From: an uncultured Planctomycetota bacterium
Lineage (GTDB): Bacteria; Planctomycetota; Phycisphaerae; UBA1845; UTPLA1
Reading direction: 5' to 3'
NCBI GenBank assembly: GCA_900696465.1
Contig: CAADGE010000030.1
Span: 124,001 to 188,000, forward strand
DNA length: 64,000 bases
A program made the translations under genes and the position numbers. The notes beneath the pieces were generated by a model. That model saw only the letters and a list, made by a program, of their open reading frames with translations, did not search any database and was not told the DNA's origin. Shown in pieces: positions 8,011 through 17,099 of the stretch. Every line of letters starts with the position of its first letter. Position 1 is the first letter of the stretch.

Positions 8011-8649
8011 TCAGGGCTGAAAGAGCCACAACTGTCGAGCTGGATAATCGTCGGTTGGCGATTGGACTGGAACGTTACCAGATGCGAGAGGACGGCTGCG
8101 TTCCGTCTGCTTAATGGGGGTGGCCATTGCTCTAACTGGCTTGGGTCTGAGTCGGGCGGCAGCCACAAAACCATCCAGATCCTGAAAATCCCACTCGCTG
8201 CGGGGTACGTCCCGACCTCGGACGTCCCGCACAACCGCGCCGAACTGCCCGACCAGCACCCGAGCGGCGAATCGATCGCAACGAGACTCCTTCTGTCGGC
8301 CGTTGCGTCGGGCCCGGCGGATCAGCCAGTGGTAAAACTCATGCAGGAAGATGAAAAGCACCAGTTCATAGGCGTCTGAAAGCTCGATCGTGTAAAGCTC
8401 GCGCCACCAGCTACGGGCGTCCGATCTTGCCCGGGCAATGTGGCTGCGGAGCAGATAGGGGTATCGGTTGTGCCGGCCGATATTTACATAAATGCGAGGC
8501 GGGACGTAGTGGCAACTCCCGGAGAAGTCAGCCCCGCGGGAGGGGCGGATGGCGACATCGAGTCCGTCGTGCGACCAGCCGTCGATGGCCTTCAGAAAGA
8601 GATCTTCGAGTCGGCCGGAATCAAGATGGGTGGTATTTCGAAGGTTCAC
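8011..8649 (-). CDS. HEXXH zinc metalloprotease-like protein with C-terminal putative sliding-clamp motif
   Basis: A 212-residue protein. LFIFLHEFYHWL places a zinc motif HEFYH at residues 103-107, and ESRCDRFAARVL follows at 121-132. The spacing and the ExxxDRFAxxxL pattern resemble ImmA/IrrE-type peptidases; the size also recalls SprT-like proteins, so the exact clan is open. The last residues are RQLWLFQP: QLWLF (206-210) fits the bacterial beta-clamp-binding consensus QLxLF, and the same kind of motif ends E. coli DNA polymerase II. This suggests a protease recruited to replication or repair sites, an inference only. The best start is the GTG at 8649, without a clear ribosome-binding site, 32 bases after kdsD, so it is probably the last gene of the envelope operon. 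Confidence 0.65.
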   Translation of the reverse strand: MNLRNTTHLDSGRLEDLFLKAIDGWSHDGLDVAIRPSRGADFSGSCHYVPPRIYVNIGRHNRYPYLLRSHIARARSDARSWWRELYTIELSDAYELVLFIFLHEFYHWLIRRARRNGRQKESRCDRFAARVLVGQFGAVVRDVRGRDVPRSEWDFQDLDGFVAAARLRPKPVRAMATPIKQTERSRPLASGNVPVQSPTDDYPARQLWLFQP

Positions 8650-8681: not shown

Positions 8682-9677
8682 TTAACCCAAGCCAGCTCGG
8701 ACCAGGTCCTGAAGACGGATGATCCCCACCGGGACTGAACCATCCTCGGACAGAACGAGCACGGTAATTTCACTCTCCCGCATTCTTCGGAGACACTCGA
8801 CCGCCAGTATGTCCGGCTGGACGGTGGAGCATCGCACCGGCGTCTCTGACGGGTCGCGCCGGCTCAGACGCCAGGCCTCGTGGGCCGAGAGCTTGCCGGG
8901 GGTCTCGCAGCGGGTCAGCAGGCGGCGCAGGTCGCCATCGGTAAAGACGCCGATGAGCCGACGCTGATCATCCACGATGCAAGTCATCCCGAGACGTTTG
9001 CCGGTCATCTCCAGGAGCAGATCGTTAAAGGTCACCGACCCGCGGACGCAGGGCATCTCATCGCCGCCATGCATCAGGTCTGCGGCGCGCGTCAGCAGTC
9101 GGCGGCCCAGACTGCCGTCAGGGTGGTAGCGGGCAAACTGATCCTCCGAGAAACCTCGCATTTCGAGCAGGGCCATCGACAGGGCATCGCCAAGCGCGAG
9201 CATCAGGAGCGTGCTCGTCGTCGGTGCGAGGGCCAGCGGACCGGCCTCCGGTCGTGAAGGAATCGGCAGACAGACATCGGCCAGCTCGGCCAACGGTGAG
9301 CCGTCGGATTCGCACACGGCGACGACCCGCCCACCGATTCGACGAAAATGTCCGACGAAGCGCACCAGTTCTTCCGTATGGCCGCTCTTGGAAAGCGCGA
9401 GCAAGACGGACCCGCTCCCCACCGCGCCCAGATCACCATGAACACCCTCGACCGGGTGCATGAACATCGCCGGTGTACCGGTGCTGGCGAGCGTCGCCGC
9501 AATCTTACGGGCAATGATCCCGCTCTTGCCGATGCCGCTCACTACCACAGGATCGGTCGCGGCCAGGATGAGCGACACCGCGTCCTGAAAGGGCTGCCCG
9601 ATCGCGTTTGCCAGGGCGACAATCGCCTCGGCCTGCTCCTTGAGCATGCCTCGAGCCAGTTCGATCGGATCGCGCAC
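8682..9677 (-). CDS. kdsD: KpsF/GutQ (KdsD) family arabinose-5-phosphate isomerase
   Basis: Interconverts ribulose 5-phosphate and arabinose 5-phosphate, the first step toward Kdo for lipopolysaccharide or capsule. The N-terminal SIS domain shows VVSGIGKSG, TPAMFMHPVEGVHGDLG and LALSKSGHTEEL; PTTSTLLMLALGDALS follows. A C-terminal pair of CBS domains covers the last 120 residues (MHGGDEMPCV... and ...GIIRLQDLVRAGLG). The GTG at 9677 is preferred: GGAGG lies eight bases upstream and gives 331 residues, the usual length. An upstream TTG at 9779 would add 34 non-conserved residues. It lies in the exopolysaccharide/envelope operon downstream of the BY-kinase gene. Confidence 0.92.
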   Translation of the reverse strand: MRDPIELARGMLKEQAEAIVALANAIGQPFQDAVSLILAATDPVVVSGIGKSGIIARKIAATLASTGTPAMFMHPVEGVHGDLGAVGSGSVLLALSKSGHTEELVRFVGHFRRIGGRVVAVCESDGSPLAELADVCLPIPSRPEAGPLALAPTTSTLLMLALGDALSMALLEMRGFSEDQFARYHPDGSLGRRLLTRAADLMHGGDEMPCVRGSVTFNDLLLEMTGKRLGMTCIVDDQRRLIGVFTDGDLRRLLTRCETPGKLSAHEAWRLSRRDPSETPVRCSTVQPDILAVECLRRMRESEITVLVLSEDGSVPVGIIRLQDLVRAGLG

Positions 9678-9822
9678 GGAAGGATCCTCCGCCGATGCTG
9701 CGCCGTGATGATGGGAACCGGCAGACAGCCCGACGGCCGTAGGATAACCGCAGACGCTCGCCGAGTGGAGAGGAAGCAAACCCGTCGCATCGGGGGATGG
9801 ATCAGATGGCTGAGGTGGGAAG

Positions 9823-12450
9823 CTACTGCGGGCGATTCGGATCGTCGGAGGCGTCTTCGTCGCCGGTCAGATCGTCCTCGCTGATGATACGCTCGCCGCC
9901 AAGACTCTCGATCTCTGCGTCGAGATCCGTCCCAAGGTCGGTGACCGCGTCAGAGCCCGATTCGACGTCGGCAAAGGAGCCCGTAGGTGAGTCAGCGGCG
10001 GCCGATGTGATGGCCTCGCCGGTCTCGCTTTCGCTCGACGATGCCGTGGGGCCTTCCAGCTCGGCCGACGGGCCCTTCGCATCTTCGTCTTTGACTCCTT
10101 TCGCGGTCTTGGTGCCGTCGCCGCCTTCGAGCCGCTTGCGCTGTTCGCGATCCTCATCTTCCACCGGCTCGTGATAATCGTAGAACTCGCGATAGGCCTT
10201 GCGGAAGTAACCACCGGCACGCGTCTCCACGCGATTGAGCACCGCCCCGAAGATGCGCGCCCCGATGGCTTCAAGCTGTTGCTGCGTTCGTTGCAACGCG
10301 CCGCGCGATGTGGTTCGATACTGGCAGACCAGCAAAACGCCATCCACACCGCTGGACAGCACCATCGCATCGCTTACCAGCAGCACCGGAGGACCGTCGA
10401 AGATGATCTGGTCGTAGCGTGCCCGCGCATCGACAAGCATCTCCTGGAGGTAGTTGCTGCCGAGCAGTTCCGCGGGGTTCGGCGGGGCCGGACCGGTGCA
10501 AAGGACATCGAGCCCCGGCACCTGGGTTGAAATCACCACGTCATCCAGATGCGCCTGGCCGATGAGGATGTTCGACAATCCCACCGTGGCCGGAGCGCCC
10601 GGCGGCGCGCCTTGAGAACCAGTGATGGCGTCCGCCCCCAGAGGACTGGACGTGCTTGCAACGGCCTCGCCGAAGATCTTCGGCAGCGCGGGCCGTCGGA
10701 AATTCGCATCGACCAGCAGTACGCGACGACCGGTCAGGGCGATCGAAATCGCCAGGTTGACCGCCACGGTGGTTTTTCCATTTCCGCCGCTGGGACTGGT
10801 CACCAGCACGGTCGCCTGCTGCTCGGCCGGCGCGGAGAAGAACAGATTGGCGCGCAGATTCCGGAAGGATTCCGCCGTGATCGAATGCGGCGCATCGAGG
10901 GAGGCGGTTTCCACCCTCGCGATTTCAATTTCGTCGTCTTCGATGGTCGGTATGGTCGCGAGCACCGCGATCGCCTGGCGCTGCACATCACGCGGGGTGC
11001 GGACCGACTTATCGGCAATCTCCAGCAGCAGGGCGAAACCAACGGCGATGCCGAGGCCCAGGATCGTGCCCGCCGGAATCCAGATTTCATACTTCGGACT
11101 CGAACGACGCTTGGGTTCAATGGCCATCGACTGCACGCTGATCTGTACGGTGCGATCCTGTCGCAGGTACATCTTCATCAGCGTCTGCTGCTCGAGAAGC
11201 TGCTCGTAGTGAAGCTTGAGCGAGTCCACTTCCTCCTGCATGCGGAGATAGTTGTTGTATTTCTGATCCTTGTCCTGTTGTTCCGATCGGGCCTCGTGGA
11301 TACGCTCCTGCACGGCCAGAAGCTGCTGCTGGGCCTCGAGGTAGCTGCGCCGGGCCTGGTCAAGCTGCTCGGTCTGGTACTGAAGAATCCTGCGGGACCT
11401 TTCCTCGGAGGCCTTCTGAGCCGCCGCATCTGCTGCGTACTGAAGCTGTTTGACGATGCGGTGGTTCTCACCCAGCCGGGCCCTGGCCTGGCGCAATTGT
11501 TCGTCGGCCTGCTGATAACTCTGCTCGAGCATGGCCAAACGCGGATCTGCGGCTAAGAGCGCCTGCAACTGCGGCGTGATCGGCAGGTCCTCGGGTTTGA
11601 GGTTCTGCAGGTTCTCGAATTCAGCTTTCTTGCCCGCCCAGTCCATCTGCAACTCAGTTTCGACAGCCGTGAGCGTGAGCAGCTTGTCCTTCAGCTCATC
11701 GCGCGACGTGCCGAGCACTTCCTCGTTGGTGCGAAAGTTCTCGATTTCCTTCTGCTTTCCTTCGAGGAGGAGTTTGGCCCGGTTGAGCTCTTCGCTGAGA
11801 GACTCGTCCGCCTTGCGGATTCGGGACTTCTGCTGCTCTTCGATCATCGCGATGTACTTGTCCACGACTTCGTTGACCAGCGTGGGCACTTCGGTCTGTA
11901 TTCGCCATGTTGCGGAAACGGCGAGATAGTTTGAGTCGCGGATCGGTTCGGCGGTGAGGATGTCGCTGAGCAGGTCGCGCGGGGCCTCGTTGTATTTTGC
12001 CTCTTTCTCCTGTGCCTCCTTGAACCAGACGGTCGCACGTACGGCCGGCGCCTCAAGCGCCTTGTCGAGGACCGACGGCGTCTTGACGGCGATGGCCTGG
12101 TCCTGAAGCAGACGCAGGATTTCCTCTTCGCGCGCTTCCTGCGGGCGGAGTGGATCCATCGGATTGACAGGAGTGATCGATTGGACACGGATGTACGCCG
12201 TGGCGCGATACTTGGGGTAGTAGCGCACGGCCAGGTAGGTGCCGACGACGGTGCAGGCGATCAGAAACAGCCAGAGGAAAAGGATCAGAACGAGGCGCTG
12301 ACGGACGATGCGGAGAAAGTCCGACCCCGTCAGACCGCTTCCGGCGCCCCCGGGCGCCATCGGTCCGCGCGGAACGGGCACGGGGATCATCCCCCCGGGG
12401 ATCGGTCCCCCGGCGCCCATGTTCGGAGGAGCGGGTGTCAGCGTCGTCAT
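9823..12450 (-). CDS. Wzc-like polysaccharide co-polymerase with BY-kinase domain
   Basis: An 875-residue inner-membrane tyrosine autokinase controlling polysaccharide chain length and export. Order: Pro/Gly-rich start, TM1 (VLILFLWLFLIACTVVGTYL), Wzz-type periplasmic region with long coiled coils, TM2 (GTILGLGIAVGFALLLEI), then the kinase. Walker A is SPSGGNGKTT, Walker A' LLVDANFRRP, and Walker B IIFDGPPVLL. A tyrosine cluster YFRKAYREFYDYHEP is the expected autophosphorylation region. Unlike standard Wzc proteins it is not at the C-terminus: a 113-residue tail rich in Asp, Glu, Ser and Thr follows. It sits between the TPR protein and kdsD in the same direction. Confidence 0.92.
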   Translation of the reverse strand: MTTLTPAPPNMGAGGPIPGGMIPVPVPRGPMAPGGAGSGLTGSDFLRIVRQRLVLILFLWLFLIACTVVGTYLAVRYYPKYRATAYIRVQSITPVNPMDPLRPQEAREEEILRLLQDQAIAVKTPSVLDKALEAPAVRATVWFKEAQEKEAKYNEAPRDLLSDILTAEPIRDSNYLAVSATWRIQTEVPTLVNEVVDKYIAMIEEQQKSRIRKADESLSEELNRAKLLLEGKQKEIENFRTNEEVLGTSRDELKDKLLTLTAVETELQMDWAGKKAEFENLQNLKPEDLPITPQLQALLAADPRLAMLEQSYQQADEQLRQARARLGENHRIVKQLQYAADAAAQKASEERSRRILQYQTEQLDQARRSYLEAQQQLLAVQERIHEARSEQQDKDQKYNNYLRMQEEVDSLKLHYEQLLEQQTLMKMYLRQDRTVQISVQSMAIEPKRRSSPKYEIWIPAGTILGLGIAVGFALLLEIADKSVRTPRDVQRQAIAVLATIPTIEDDEIEIARVETASLDAPHSITAESFRNLRANLFFSAPAEQQATVLVTSPSGGNGKTTVAVNLAISIALTGRRVLLVDANFRRPALPKIFGEAVASTSSPLGADAITGSQGAPPGAPATVGLSNILIGQAHLDDVVISTQVPGLDVLCTGPAPPNPAELLGSNYLQEMLVDARARYDQIIFDGPPVLLVSDAMVLSSGVDGVLLVCQYRTTSRGALQRTQQQLEAIGARIFGAVLNRVETRAGGYFRKAYREFYDYHEPVEDEDREQRKRLEGGDGTKTAKGVKDEDAKGPSAELEGPTASSSESETGEAITSAAADSPTGSFADVESGSDAVTDLGTDLDAEIESLGGERIISEDDLTGDEDASDDPNRPQ

Positions 12451-12542
12451 TCGTCCCTACTAAATCCGGCCGCACGTCGTGTCCGCAGTCGCGCAGCACA
12501 ATCATGGCCGGTTTCCGAGGCCGTCCATGGCCCCGTACGGCC

Positions 12543-15500
12543 CTACTTGCCGGCAGACCGCGCCTCTTCGAGCGCCTTCTCTATATTCGACAAATACGGA
12601 TGAGGGCCTTGGGTCGCGATATTCTTTTCGGCGGCTCTTTTTGCCTCTAGGAGCCGCCTTTCGGCCTCTTCGTACTCTTTTCTGCGCAGGTGGAGCATCC
12701 CCAGGTGATATAGCGTCACCACGTGCTCCCGGTTCAATGTGAGACTGCGAAGGAAGACACCCAGGGCCTCCCCGGTTCGATTGTTGAGGGTCAGGGTCCA
12801 CCCGAGTGTGTCGAGAACATCCTGATTGTCCGGATCAGCCCGGCGGGCTCGCTGGGCATAAGGCAGTGCCTCCGCAGGACGATCCAGCTCTTCCGCCAGA
12901 AGTGCAGCTAAGTTGTTTAATGCCAGAGGATTATCAGGATCGTACTTCAGGGCTTCCTCATAGAACTGGCGGGCGGCCTCGTGCTCATTCAGACGCTGCT
13001 TCAACATGCCCTGGCCCAGCAAGCTGAAAATTGTGTCCTGATCGCGCGTCGCCAGACGAGCAATTTTTTCGCAGACGGCCAAGGCCTCGGGAATCTTGTC
13101 ATTGAGCTGCAGCAGGTGGACCAGCACTTTTTGCCGCTCGACATTTTCAGGTTCAGCGGTGGCTCGTTCCTGCTCGCGGGCCAGGGCTTTATCTTTGCCG
13201 AAGGCCTGAACGATTTCGAGGACAATTCCCGTGTAAAGGGCAAAGTTCTGTTCTGACGCCGACAGGGCGCGGTCATAGAACTCCGTCGCTTTGATGGGGT
13301 CACCCGTCTGCATGTAAGCCCACGCCACGTTGGCCAGCGCAGAGGGCATGGTGCTGAGCAGGCGTCCGGAAAGTTTCTCACCCGCATAGTCAATGATCAC
13401 TTTGGGCTGGTTGGCGATCCGACAGACGCGGAAGAGGGCTTCGACGGAATCGCGGCTGTAACGACTCAGCTCGGCGGCCTTCTGATAGGCCTGCACGGCG
13501 CGTTCGAGATTTTGTGCCTTCTCTGCAAGACGGCCCAGGAGCATCGGCCAGCGATGGTCGCGCGGCTGTCGTTGCATGTAGGTGTAGATCAGGGCCTCGG
13601 CATCCGGGTAGCGCGACGGTCCGATGCGAGAGTAAACATCCACCAGCGCCTCAGCGACGGTTGTTTCCTCCGGATGCTCGTCAAGGATGGATCGCAATTC
13701 GTTGACAGCGGAGTCGTTCCGGCCAATCTCCATAAGGGTGTCTGCCAGCGAGATGCGGTGCTGGAAGCTGAATGCATTGGGGCTGAAGGTTTTCGACTTG
13801 GTAAGATCGTCGATGGCCTTCTGCCAGCGACCCATCAGCCGGAACAGCTCACCGCGCTGCCAGAGAGCGACGGCGTTGTCCGGATTCTTCTCCAAGTGAG
13901 AATCGAAGGACTTCTTGGCCTGCTGCACGTCGCCGGCGATCCGGTGATAAGCACCTTCGTAGATCATGCCCTGCGGGTTCTCGGGGTATTTTTCGAGGAA
14001 CTTGTCGAGCTCCGTGCGGGCCTGATCCAGATCGCCGATCGCGAGGCACAGGGCGATCAGACGGGAGGATGAATCTTCAGCACCGATGTGGTCATTCGCC
14101 GCTTCCTGCAACTTCAAGGCGCGGCTGAAGTACTCCAGAGAATCCCGCAGTCGATTGGTGCGGGCGTAGTACTCGCCTGCCGTTTTGAGGATGTCCACCG
14201 AGGGATCGAGACTGACGGCCAGACGGTAGTGCCGATCGGCGGTGGCCAGAACTTTCTGACGCTCATAGAACCTGCCGAGATAGGAGGCGATCAAGGCCTT
14301 GCGAGACTTGTCCTCTTCTTTGGTCATCATGTCGACCAGGATCGCGTCGCCTTCGGCAGGTCGATTGACGTCTTCGCGGCCGAGAAATTCGGCAAGCTCA
14401 TAAACGACCTGCAAATCGTTCTTCGAAACTGCAACGGCTTGTTTGTAGACTTCGATGGCCTTTTCAAACTGACCGACTTCCGGCATGCCGTAGAGCCGCG
14501 CGAGAAGAATCAGGTTCTGCAGGTCGTTAGGATCCTGCTGTCGCAGCTTCTCCCGGCTGGCGATGCCCTCCTTCGGATTTTCCTTTTCCTGAAGGGTCTG
14601 AAGTTGCCGCTTCACGAAGGGATCCGTGGGCAGTGATCGTGCGGCAATTCGCAGGTACTTCTCAGCATCCTTCTCATTGCCCTCACGCAGGGCCATTTCG
14701 GCCATGGCGCGATTGGCGTAGCCGCTGGTCGGATCTCGCTTGAGGGCCTCTTGTAATACGTTCTTCGCCTCGGCAGGGCGATTGGCCCGCAGGTAGGCCT
14801 CGGCGAGCAGGGTCCAGGCGATCGCGTTCGTCGGATAGCGCTGAAGACCGGCGCGAATCTGCGTGATGGCGTCGTCGAACTTGCCCTGGGCCATTGCGAG
14901 ACGGCCGAGCGAGAGTGCACCCTCGGTGCCGTCAATGTTCAGTTCGCCCTGCCGCTTGGCGTACTTCTCGGCGCGCGGCCAATCCTCGCGCAGGACGGCG
15001 TTGCGGAACTGGCGCTCGACGACAGCCGGATTGTCCGGCTGGAGCTTCTCGGCAGCGTCGATGTGCTTCTGGGCCTCTTCGTAATCATCGCTCGAGAAGT
15101 AGTAATCAAACAGCGAAATGGAGCGGACCACGGGGTCCTTCTCTTCATTGAGAATCTCCAGGGCACGCTGCTTGCGGGCTGCGGTGTCGCCCTCGTCCAT
15201 GAGGTCGAGGTCCATCATCTTCAGGACCCGGTTGTCGGGCAGTCGGCTCAGGGCTGACTTCACCAGGGATCGGGCGTCGGCCAGCCGATTCGTGTCGCGG
15301 TAGAGCTTCGCCAAGGCGCGAAGCACGTTGACGTTGTCCGGCTCACTTGCCTGAAGCGCCTTGAGCTTTGCTTCCGCTTCGTCGTATTTCTCGCTCAGCA
15401 GGAGAATCTGGGCCATTCGCAATTCGTCTTCGGTCCCGGTGCCGCCGAGTCGCTTGCTCTCTTCCAGGGCCTGGTCGTACTGCTCAAGCTGGCGCAGGGC

Positions 15501-17099
15501 CTCGACACGCAGCCGAGCGGCAATGGGATTGTTGCGCAGGTAATCGCCGCGGGGCCCGAGGTCCGTCGGCTTGAGCAGGGCGAGGGCCTCGGTGGCCTTG
15601 TTCTCGCGCAGGTAGACTTGTGCCAGGCGCAGGATGAGGGGCGGCGCGTCGGGATTCAATGCAATTGCTTTTTTCAAAGCTCCTTCCGCCGCACCCCACT
15701 GCTGCTGCCGCGAATAAAGCTCGGCGAGAAGAACCTGAACGCCGATGTGCCCACGTGTGCCGGCCAGGCGCTCCGCGGCTTCGGCCTCGCGCGTGGCCTC
15801 GACCAGTTCATCGCGCGCCGCGTGCAGATTGGCGACGAGGAATTTGACTTCAAGCGAGCCGGGATCGACTTCCTGCTTGAGCTGGTTGACCCAGCCCTCG
15901 GCCTGGGCGATGGCCTCGTTCTTCTTGGCGTCCGAATCGGCCAGTTCGGCGTACGCCAAATCGGCGAGGAACAACTCGGTGAAGAAATTCACGCGGGCCA
16001 GATTGTTCATCATTTTGCGGAAGTGCGTTGTCCGCGGCACCGAAGCGAGGCCCTGCTTGTAAAGTTCGACCTCCTTCTGCTTGATCGCGGCGCGCTTCTG
16101 CGGATCGGACTCGGCCTCCTGCATGCGCTTGTAGACATTGCCCAGTTCGAGATAGACCTGGCCGGCGCCGGGATCAACCTGCAGGGCCTTGCGGAAGATC
16201 GATTCGGCCCGTGGAAGATCCTGAGGAACGAGATTGCCGAGCATCCCGGTGTAAATCTGAGCCAGCATGCGATGGGCGTCGACCGAGCCGCTCTCGTTCT
16301 GAACAAGCGCGTTGAGATCGGCGATGCCCTCATCGATCTTGTTAGACACAATCTTGAAAATGGCCTGCAACTGCAGCAACTGTGGCACGCGATCCGGCGC
16401 GGCGGCGCGACACTTTTCAAGGGTGGTCGCGACAAGCCCGTCACGAGCCCGGACGATCTCGTCGGCCTGATCGATTCGGCCGGCGGCGCGCTCGCGTTCG
16501 GCGTCGGCCCACCACTGGCGAGCGAGGATGTCCGCGGCCTTGGCATTGGTGGGGTCGAGTTCAAGGGCCTTCTTGAGGGCCGCCTCACCGAGTGCCTTGT
16601 AGCGATCGTTCTCTGCCTGAAGCTGCAGGTAGGCGGCGCCCATGGCGTGCTGCGCCAGCACCGAGCCGGGGTCCACTTCGGCAAGCTTCTTGGACTCGGT
16701 CAGCACGTTGTTCCAGTAGAGCTTCGAGTCGATCTTCTGAGCGATCTCGAACTCCAGGTCGGTGATCATCTCCAGGGCGGTGCGAAGGGTTGCATTGCGC
16801 ACCAGAGCGTTGCGGAGCAGCTCCCGGGCCATGGGAATCTTGCCCAGCTCGAGCTGACAGCGCGCCGCATGGACCAGATAGTCGGGGTTCTTGGAAGGAT
16901 CGCGCTGGTAGGCCCGGAAGTAGGTCTGGGCCGCCATCTCGTATTCCTTGTTTTCCTCGTGTTTCTCGGCATCCTTCGCGTAGATGGTGGGGTCCTGCCC
17001 GGGGAGGTTCGCCAACATGGCAAAGCCGATGACGGCGAGTGCCACCATAAAGACCAGTGTGAGAATGCCGACCAGGTTTCGATTAAGTTTCTTGGCCAT
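12543..17099 (-). CDS. Giant TPR-repeat protein of the exosortase locus
   Basis: A 1,518-residue protein with one N-terminal membrane anchor (NLVGILTLVFMVALAVIGFAML) and then TPR units over nearly the whole length. Repeats are recognisable by A/G-Y-A patterns such as NPDAPPLILRLAQVYLRE, NPDNAVALWQRGELFRLMG and DPDNPLALNNLAALLAEE. The topology places the repeats outside the membrane. Large TPR proteins (PrsT type) are common companions of exosortase and polysaccharide export genes, where they are thought to scaffold assembly. That role is an inference here. GGAAGG lies about nine bases before the ATG. The gene is between epsI-like and BY-kinase genes, about 100 bases from each. Long open frames on the opposite strand are coding shadows. 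Confidence 0.9.
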   Translation of the reverse strand: MAKKLNRNLVGILTLVFMVALAVIGFAMLANLPGQDPTIYAKDAEKHEENKEYEMAAQTYFRAYQRDPSKNPDYLVHAARCQLELGKIPMARELLRNALVRNATLRTALEMITDLEFEIAQKIDSKLYWNNVLTESKKLAEVDPGSVLAQHAMGAAYLQLQAENDRYKALGEAALKKALELDPTNAKAADILARQWWADAERERAAGRIDQADEIVRARDGLVATTLEKCRAAAPDRVPQLLQLQAIFKIVSNKIDEGIADLNALVQNESGSVDAHRMLAQIYTGMLGNLVPQDLPRAESIFRKALQVDPGAGQVYLELGNVYKRMQEAESDPQKRAAIKQKEVELYKQGLASVPRTTHFRKMMNNLARVNFFTELFLADLAYAELADSDAKKNEAIAQAEGWVNQLKQEVDPGSLEVKFLVANLHAARDELVEATREAEAAERLAGTRGHIGVQVLLAELYSRQQQWGAAEGALKKAIALNPDAPPLILRLAQVYLRENKATEALALLKPTDLGPRGDYLRNNPIAARLRVEALRQLEQYDQALEESKRLGGTGTEDELRMAQILLLSEKYDEAEAKLKALQASEPDNVNVLRALAKLYRDTNRLADARSLVKSALSRLPDNRVLKMMDLDLMDEGDTAARKQRALEILNEEKDPVVRSISLFDYYFSSDDYEEAQKHIDAAEKLQPDNPAVVERQFRNAVLREDWPRAEKYAKRQGELNIDGTEGALSLGRLAMAQGKFDDAITQIRAGLQRYPTNAIAWTLLAEAYLRANRPAEAKNVLQEALKRDPTSGYANRAMAEMALREGNEKDAEKYLRIAARSLPTDPFVKRQLQTLQEKENPKEGIASREKLRQQDPNDLQNLILLARLYGMPEVGQFEKAIEVYKQAVAVSKNDLQVVYELAEFLGREDVNRPAEGDAILVDMMTKEEDKSRKALIASYLGRFYERQKVLATADRHYRLAVSLDPSVDILKTAGEYYARTNRLRDSLEYFSRALKLQEAANDHIGAEDSSSRLIALCLAIGDLDQARTELDKFLEKYPENPQGMIYEGAYHRIAGDVQQAKKSFDSHLEKNPDNAVALWQRGELFRLMGRWQKAIDDLTKSKTFSPNAFSFQHRISLADTLMEIGRNDSAVNELRSILDEHPEETTVAEALVDVYSRIGPSRYPDAEALIYTYMQRQPRDHRWPMLLGRLAEKAQNLERAVQAYQKAAELSRYSRDSVEALFRVCRIANQPKVIIDYAGEKLSGRLLSTMPSALANVAWAYMQTGDPIKATEFYDRALSASEQNFALYTGIVLEIVQAFGKDKALAREQERATAEPENVERQKVLVHLLQLNDKIPEALAVCEKIARLATRDQDTIFSLLGQGMLKQRLNEHEAARQFYEEALKYDPDNPLALNNLAALLAEELDRPAEALPYAQRARRADPDNQDVLDTLGWTLTLNNRTGEALGVFLRSLTLNREHVVTLYHLGMLHLRRKEYEEAERRLLEAKRAAEKNIATQGPHPYLSNIEKALEEARSAGK

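Follow-up and report, generated by a model that had tools for sequence, protein, structure and literature searches.

We propose that a short gene in the 64,000-nucleotide stretch of planctomycete DNA analysed here (the window) encodes a cytosolic zinc metalloprotease that is tethered to the sliding clamp. According to this model, a compact, basic HExxH+E core would be followed by a floppy linker and a terminal QLxLF-type clamp-binding peptide. The tail peptide would dock in the pocket of DnaN, and the protease would thereby ride the sliding clamp, at replication forks or behind them, and there cut proteins stuck on or crosslinked to DNA, like eukaryotic SPRTN and FAM111A. The parts of this model are not equally firm. 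The core is very probably proteolytic, and binding to DnaN is quite likely. We consider a clamp-tethered protease, whatever its substrate, to be the probable identity of the protein. Clearance of DNA-bound proteins is the role favoured by analogy with SPRTN and FAM111A, and it is put forward tentatively. The complete scenario is a possibility on the doubtful side: a clamp-tethered protease clearing DNA-stuck proteins, evolved independently of SPRTN and FAM111A, ancestral in its order and, in some lineages, encoded immediately after xerD, with the covalent intermediate that XerD forms with DNA as a conceivable substrate. The family itself is undescribed and unnamed, and is found across one planctomycete order.

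Table 1. Position of the protease gene, its parts and its upstream neighbour in the window.
Feature	Positions	Strand	Remarks
Metalloprotease gene	8011..8649	minus	212 aa, GTG start
Folded core, residues 1-165	8155..8649	minus	near-gapless across 42 homologues; AlphaFold pLDDT 89-99
HEFYH zinc-binding motif, residues 103-107	8329..8343	minus	HExxH in 77/77 members holding the region
KESRCDR, residues 120-126	8272..8292	minus	KESRCDRFA = residues 120-128
Predicted disordered linker, residues 166-204	8038..8154	minus	low pLDDT; linker identity near shuffled level
QLWLF candidate clamp-binding motif, residues 206-210 (Q206-F210)	8020..8034	minus	2 residues before the C-terminus
KpsF/GutQ-family sugar-phosphate isomerase gene	8682..9779	minus	upstream of the protease; linkage in family f1 only

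Most homologues align from the same first residue as the window's protein. In the 42 aligned members the core spans 165 residues, with a few extra N-terminal residues in three of them, and 23 of its columns are invariant, including C46, N56, H103, E104, H107, K120, E121, C124, D125 and R126. The AlphaFold model gives high pLDDT for each ten-residue block up to residue 160, and 52-62 per block from residue 171 onward. The original prediction, made from the sequence of the window, had pointed to a HEFYH zinc motif, an ExxxDRFA motif and a C-terminal RQLWLFQP, and all three hold, on a strand that the prediction left unstated and that is the minus strand. The first lies where Table 1 places it; the second reads E-S-R-C-D-R-F-A, with its E and D in 77/77 members and its C in 76/77; the third forms the final eight residues of the protein and, as shown below, is not due to chance. 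Taken together, HExxH-x13-E-xx-C-D-[RK]-[FY]-A is found in 76 of the 77 loci holding this region (the odd one carries Ser at the Cys position), and a FSGxCxY-type motif is found in 76/76 loci that hold its region. From the alignment with M78 peptidases, E121 is likely the third zinc ligand. There are 78 loci in all, four duplicates (L031-L034) being left uncounted.

The tail that follows the core varies from 7 to 73 residues across members, and it is there that the candidate motif recurs. A stop codon closes 76 of the 78 loci, which thus have complete tails (the open-ended L099 and L107 were left out). QL.LF occurs in 19/76 of these tails, against a mean of 0.03 and a maximum of 1 in 1000 composition shuffles, and Q..LF in 37/76 (mean 0.33 and maximum 2 in 1000 shuffles). 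Since the patterns looser than QL.LF were devised after viewing the homologues, the published clamp-motif definition (PMC11139829), either Q-phi-x-[LM]-[FL] or Q-phi-x-[LM]-x-[FL], serves as an independent check. It fits 23/74 tails (2000 shuffles: mean 0.73, maximum 6), and a looser pattern fits 40/74 (mean 1.7, maximum 7); for these two counts and for the tree described below, L088 and L097, whose cores are incomplete, were also left out. Hexameric variants such as QLWLDF, QLLLPF and QMRLPL are present as well. In 19/35 Q..LF tails, exactly two residues separate the motif from the C-terminus.

Synonymous codons are varied among the 37 Q..LF motifs: Gln is encoded by CAG in 22 and CAA in 15, Phe by TTT in 19 and TTC in 18, and the Leu at position 4 by all six codons. 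The peptide is thus preserved as its coding sequence drifts, and it looks selected. The linker behaves differently from the core. Over 592 pairs of members carrying Q..LF, whose cores share at most 80% identity, the linkers are 41% identical, compared with 39% when the letters are shuffled, and the cores average 54%. The motif identity of 83% in these pairs was not used as evidence, as it is inflated by the choice of members by Q..LF, three of the four scored positions being fixed in advance by that choice. Alignment of the homologues, which the original prediction had proposed as a check, is therefore largely favourable, the C-terminal QLxLF recurring after a non-conserved linker.

As a background, we used 317 proteins called from about 460 kb of the window's own genome, a set that does not contain the protease itself. 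QL.LF is absent anywhere in these proteins, and neither Q..LF nor the published motif lies within the last 15 residues of any of the 317. Elsewhere both are met by chance: Q..LF anywhere in 15/317, and the published motif anywhere in 37/317 and in the last 50 residues of 3/317. Only position and strict form thus distinguish the protease from other proteins. Among 299 open reading frames (ORFs) from 20 neighbourhoods and the window, chosen longest-first and including the protease for only 11 of the 21 sources, four have QL.LF within their last 40 residues, and all four are the protease.

We found matches to the family in 42 of 61 genomes (the window's genome and 60 relatives) and relatives in 77 of the 114 genomes of its order. 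In a sample of 392 genomes of the phylum, the only matches were in the window's own genome and, marginally, in G231; the latter (41 positions, E 8e-4) is taken as chance, since its frame is without HExxH and a longer ORF runs opposite to it on the other strand. All four named records with a match are Planctomycetota MAGs, one of them titled Phycisphaerales. Viral contigs, plasmids and phages gave no relative of the protease at the sensitivities used. The midpoint-rooted core tree has 38 weak branches among its 71 inner ones; on it, the taxonomic families require 7 changes for 8 groups, the minimum possible, as expected for vertical inheritance. Given the lack of viral, plasmid and phage relatives at these sensitivities and the agreement of the core tree with taxonomic families, we rejected a mobile origin.

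The window's protein reaches no Pfam or NCBIfam cut-off: the one Pfam row, DUF4344, is sub-threshold at E 0.2 and 11.8 bits (cut-off 29.6), and NCBIfam returned no row. DUF4344 (PF14247) is the best weak Pfam match of the family, matching 19/42 cores at E values up to 1 (the lowest being 0.0014), but the window's core taken by itself reaches 12.5 bits and stays below the same cut-off. PF06114 (M78, the ImmA/IrrE family) gave no row for the protease at E up to 10, its curated cut-off not being reached, and it matched 3/42 cores at E up to 1, with a best value of 0.014. SprT-like Pfam families matched neither the protease at E up to 10 nor any of the 42 cores at E up to 1. We also compared profiles, using profiles built from planctomycete zincins (28 of 30 loci for M78, 28 of 32 for SprT). 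The core matched M78 with a probability of 90.5 over 36 columns, a value that was 90.0 when the M78 rows were preselected by motif and 90.5 in the rerun without preselection. It matched DUF4344 with 82.7 over 70 columns, from only three DUF4344 sequences, and SprT with 55.7 over 72 columns, compared with 67.7 for an M78 versus SprT control.

Structure comparison does not single out a family either. In the PDB, Foldseek found nothing at E up to 0.001, and the top VIA-align match is 1oz9 (Z 8.1), which we take to be AQ_1354, a YbeY relative; further down are E. coli YbeY (6.7), SPRTN (6.5), Wss1 (6.3) and IrrE (5.4, with 21% identity over 80 residues). With middling Z values on one side and an empty Foldseek search on the other, the fold names no family. 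Assignment to SprT/SPRTN was rejected, there being no Pfam match and a profile match weaker than the M78-SprT control; assignment to M78 or DUF4344 was rejected as well, the protease being below both cut-offs. We read these proteins as a separate zincin family with a probable IrrE-type active site. The family is also basic, with a mean pI of 10.1 (range 7.3-11.3) over 74 members and a core net charge of +4.9 per 100 residues, compared with -0.3 in the 317 background proteins, 5% of which reach +4.9. Such a charge is compatible with association with nucleic acids but is no proof of it.

The resemblance to IrrE bears on what the protease could cut. IrrE cuts DdrO, and a clamp-tethered signalling protease of ImmA/IrrE type would likewise cut one regulator when replication is disturbed, a reading that overlaps with the one we prefer and that we regard as unlikely. 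The active-site pattern of M78, HExxH followed by E-xx-[AC][ND]-xFA, is indeed present in the protease, its M78 profile match is above those of DUF4344 and SprT, and IrrE is among the structural rows. However, this profile match spans the catalytic motif only, no PF06114 row was obtained, and no regulator gene recurs in the loci examined, where the recurring neighbours are a kdsD-like gene in family f1 and xerD in families f2 and f8. To our knowledge, no clamp motif is known in ImmA/IrrE proteins. The alternative offered with the original prediction, an ImmA/IrrE-like protease in which the pentapeptide is chance, is thus borne out for its active site but not for its pentapeptide.

In f1, the window's own family, the KpsF/GutQ-family (kdsD-like) isomerase lies upstream of the protease on the same strand in 12/16 loci, and this linked isomerase adjoins polysaccharide-type genes rather than a replication gene. 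Such genes occupy positions 9823-17099 of the window, upstream of the isomerase and the protease; they include a Wzc-like-looking ATPase and a 1518-residue TPR protein, and the same order is found in several f1 genomes. In other families the upstream neighbour on the same strand is xerD, in 23/29 f8 loci (e.g. L122, L123, L124 and L126) and in both f2 loci, which belong to one genome. The XerD cut-off was passed by 3/3 neighbours tested. Neither the isomerase nor xerD was seen beside the 27 f4 loci. As many loci have flanks of only 0.6-1.5 kb, all these linkage counts are lower bounds, and a missing neighbour says little. In two f4 genomes, ORFs near the protease, at L119:8389-9726 and L120:11420-12808, match each other but nothing in Pfam, and are perhaps not genuine genes. 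Among the neighbours, only xerD speaks for a DNA role, which its linkage fits, and that linkage is confined to f2 and f8. It would also suit a clamp-tethered protease with a regulatory role in place of lesion repair, one trimming or turning over clamp clients or a partner recombinase such as XerD. This second reading, which also overlaps with ours, draws on the recurrent xerD neighbours and on their passing the XerD cut-off, but xerD was not seen flanking the f1 and f4 loci (with flanks that are often short), and we hold it to be rather improbable.

The preferred reading, a protease brought to the clamp to clear proteins from DNA, has two parallels in Eukaryotes. SPRTN, like the window's protein, is a HExxH metalloprotease whose C-terminal part holds a peptide for the sliding clamp, in its case a PIP box that binds PCNA (PMC7782752); the protease studied here has a bacterial clamp motif where SPRTN has its PIP box. 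By VIA-align the protease superposes on SPRTN (6mdx) with an rmsd of 2.9 over 94 residues; unrelated zincins attain as much in the same output, and the Z of 6.5 lies below that of the top match and in the range that the program labels a common arrangement. The protease core is without any invariant His beyond H103 and H107, whereas in SprT a third His is used. The parallel with SPRTN drawn in the original prediction therefore stands for the recurring clamp motif and the largely kept pocket of the clamp, but not, by sequence, for a SprT-like domain. FAM111A, also a protease with a PCNA-binding PIP box, is proposed to remove fork obstacles, but it is a serine protease (PMC7782752). SPRTN can be recruited to forks without its PIP box (PMC7782752), so the clamp motif here need not be the sole targeting device either. 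As for SprT-like proteins, matches were obtained in 66/149 genomes of the phylum compared with 4/26 near relatives; all four SprT-bearing near relatives also carry the protease, and six protease-less relatives are without SprT too, which allows no conclusion on a functional replacement of SprT.

Among bacterial clamp clients, Pol II, Pol IV, Pol III alpha and Hda use a five- or six-residue motif, in several cases located in a disordered end (PMC11139829). The QLWLF of the protease matches the published motif, but the clients named there are not proteases, and the word protease is absent from the main text of that review (PMC11139829). RecBCD was newly reported as a clamp client through QVEMEF (PMC13254535), so the list of clamp clients is still growing. 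In the open-licence literature, which holds no preprints and few subscription journals, no bacterial protease is named as a clamp client among the matches listed. If binding to DnaN proves true, this would be, as far as those open-licence matches go, the first sliding-clamp client described among bacterial proteases. It would also offer a ubiquitin-free bacterial model for confining a protease to replication forks, and would point to more than one origin of clamp-tethered proteases.

A clamp with a largely matching pocket is available in these genomes. DnaN was found in 11/11 genomes searched. With 10 of 12 DnaN loci compared (L144 and L151 were left out), 11 of the 18 pocket residues listed in PMC11139829 are equal to those of E. 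coli K-12 in 10/10 DnaN rows: R152, T172, G174, R176, L177, P242, V247, N320, V360, M362 and P363. The others differ (L155I, H175R, R246D/E, Y323F, M364V and R365N/S) or, at V344, are variable. One genome (G002) has two matches to the C-terminal domain of DnaN (L153 and L155), perhaps from two clamp genes. The replicative polymerase also carries motifs of this kind. Indeed, Q..[LM]F is present in the best DnaE locus of 14/16 genomes, at 918-997 of the open frame, the exceptions being L161, which was read in an antisense frame, and L170, in which no motif was found. These motifs are of GQ[LM]xMF type, GQLSMF in the window's own genome. Four further DnaE-like loci have Q..LF in two cases (L172 and L173) and none in the other two. 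Among 16 IMS_C (Y-family) loci, of which at least L130 was read in a wrong frame, only L128 has a QLSLF near its C-terminal end, and that of the window's genome has none. Near the protease gene of another genome (G490), the N-terminus of an ORF at L127:3950-7636 resembles, by eye, an error-prone DnaE2-type polymerase.

With a pocket that is largely kept and clamp-type motifs in DnaE, the DnaN pocket here probably takes such peptides. That the tail would instead bind another partner, its likeness to the clamp motif being coincidental, seems to us improbable. Position 2 is Gly in 9/35 Q..LF motifs, which places these outside the published definition as coded; against this, pentameric and hexameric clamp variants are both present, mostly near the C-terminus and in a predicted disordered tail, and the DnaE proteins of the same genomes carry related motifs. 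A selected QLxLF that ends a disordered tail, together with a largely matching DnaN pocket, makes clamp tethering the best explanation.

Homologues with the protease core but lacking the C-terminal motif, which had been named beforehand as evidence against a clamp-binding tail, do exist: even under the loose pattern, 34/74 members have no motif (27 with other tails and 7 with short tails), yet QL.LF recurs far beyond its shuffled expectation. An ordinary zincin with a chance pentapeptide, as the motif-less members might suggest, is hardly credible given the shuffle counts, the codon diversity and the lack of QL.LF in the background proteins. On the core tree, the presence or absence of the motif amounts to 22 changes. 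The deepest split of the midpoint-rooted tree has motif-bearing members on either side, which favours, without proving, that the motif is ancestral, on a tree that cannot tell gain from loss; we read the motif-less members as losses or alterations, which would have happened often. Their largest block is f4, where QL.LF- or Q..LF-type patterns are present in 12/27 members and missing in 15/27. Another conserved motif, IPVxI (e.g. IPVTIRG), is found in 17/27 f4 tails, as in L028, L035 and L071, instead of or beside the clamp motif. Near misses among the motif-less tails are DQLTFPG, QLLFRF, QQLLSF and TGMLPF. Finally, in L020, which has a short tail, a QLQLF soon followed by a stop codon lies just downstream in another frame, the result of either a frameshift or an assembly error.
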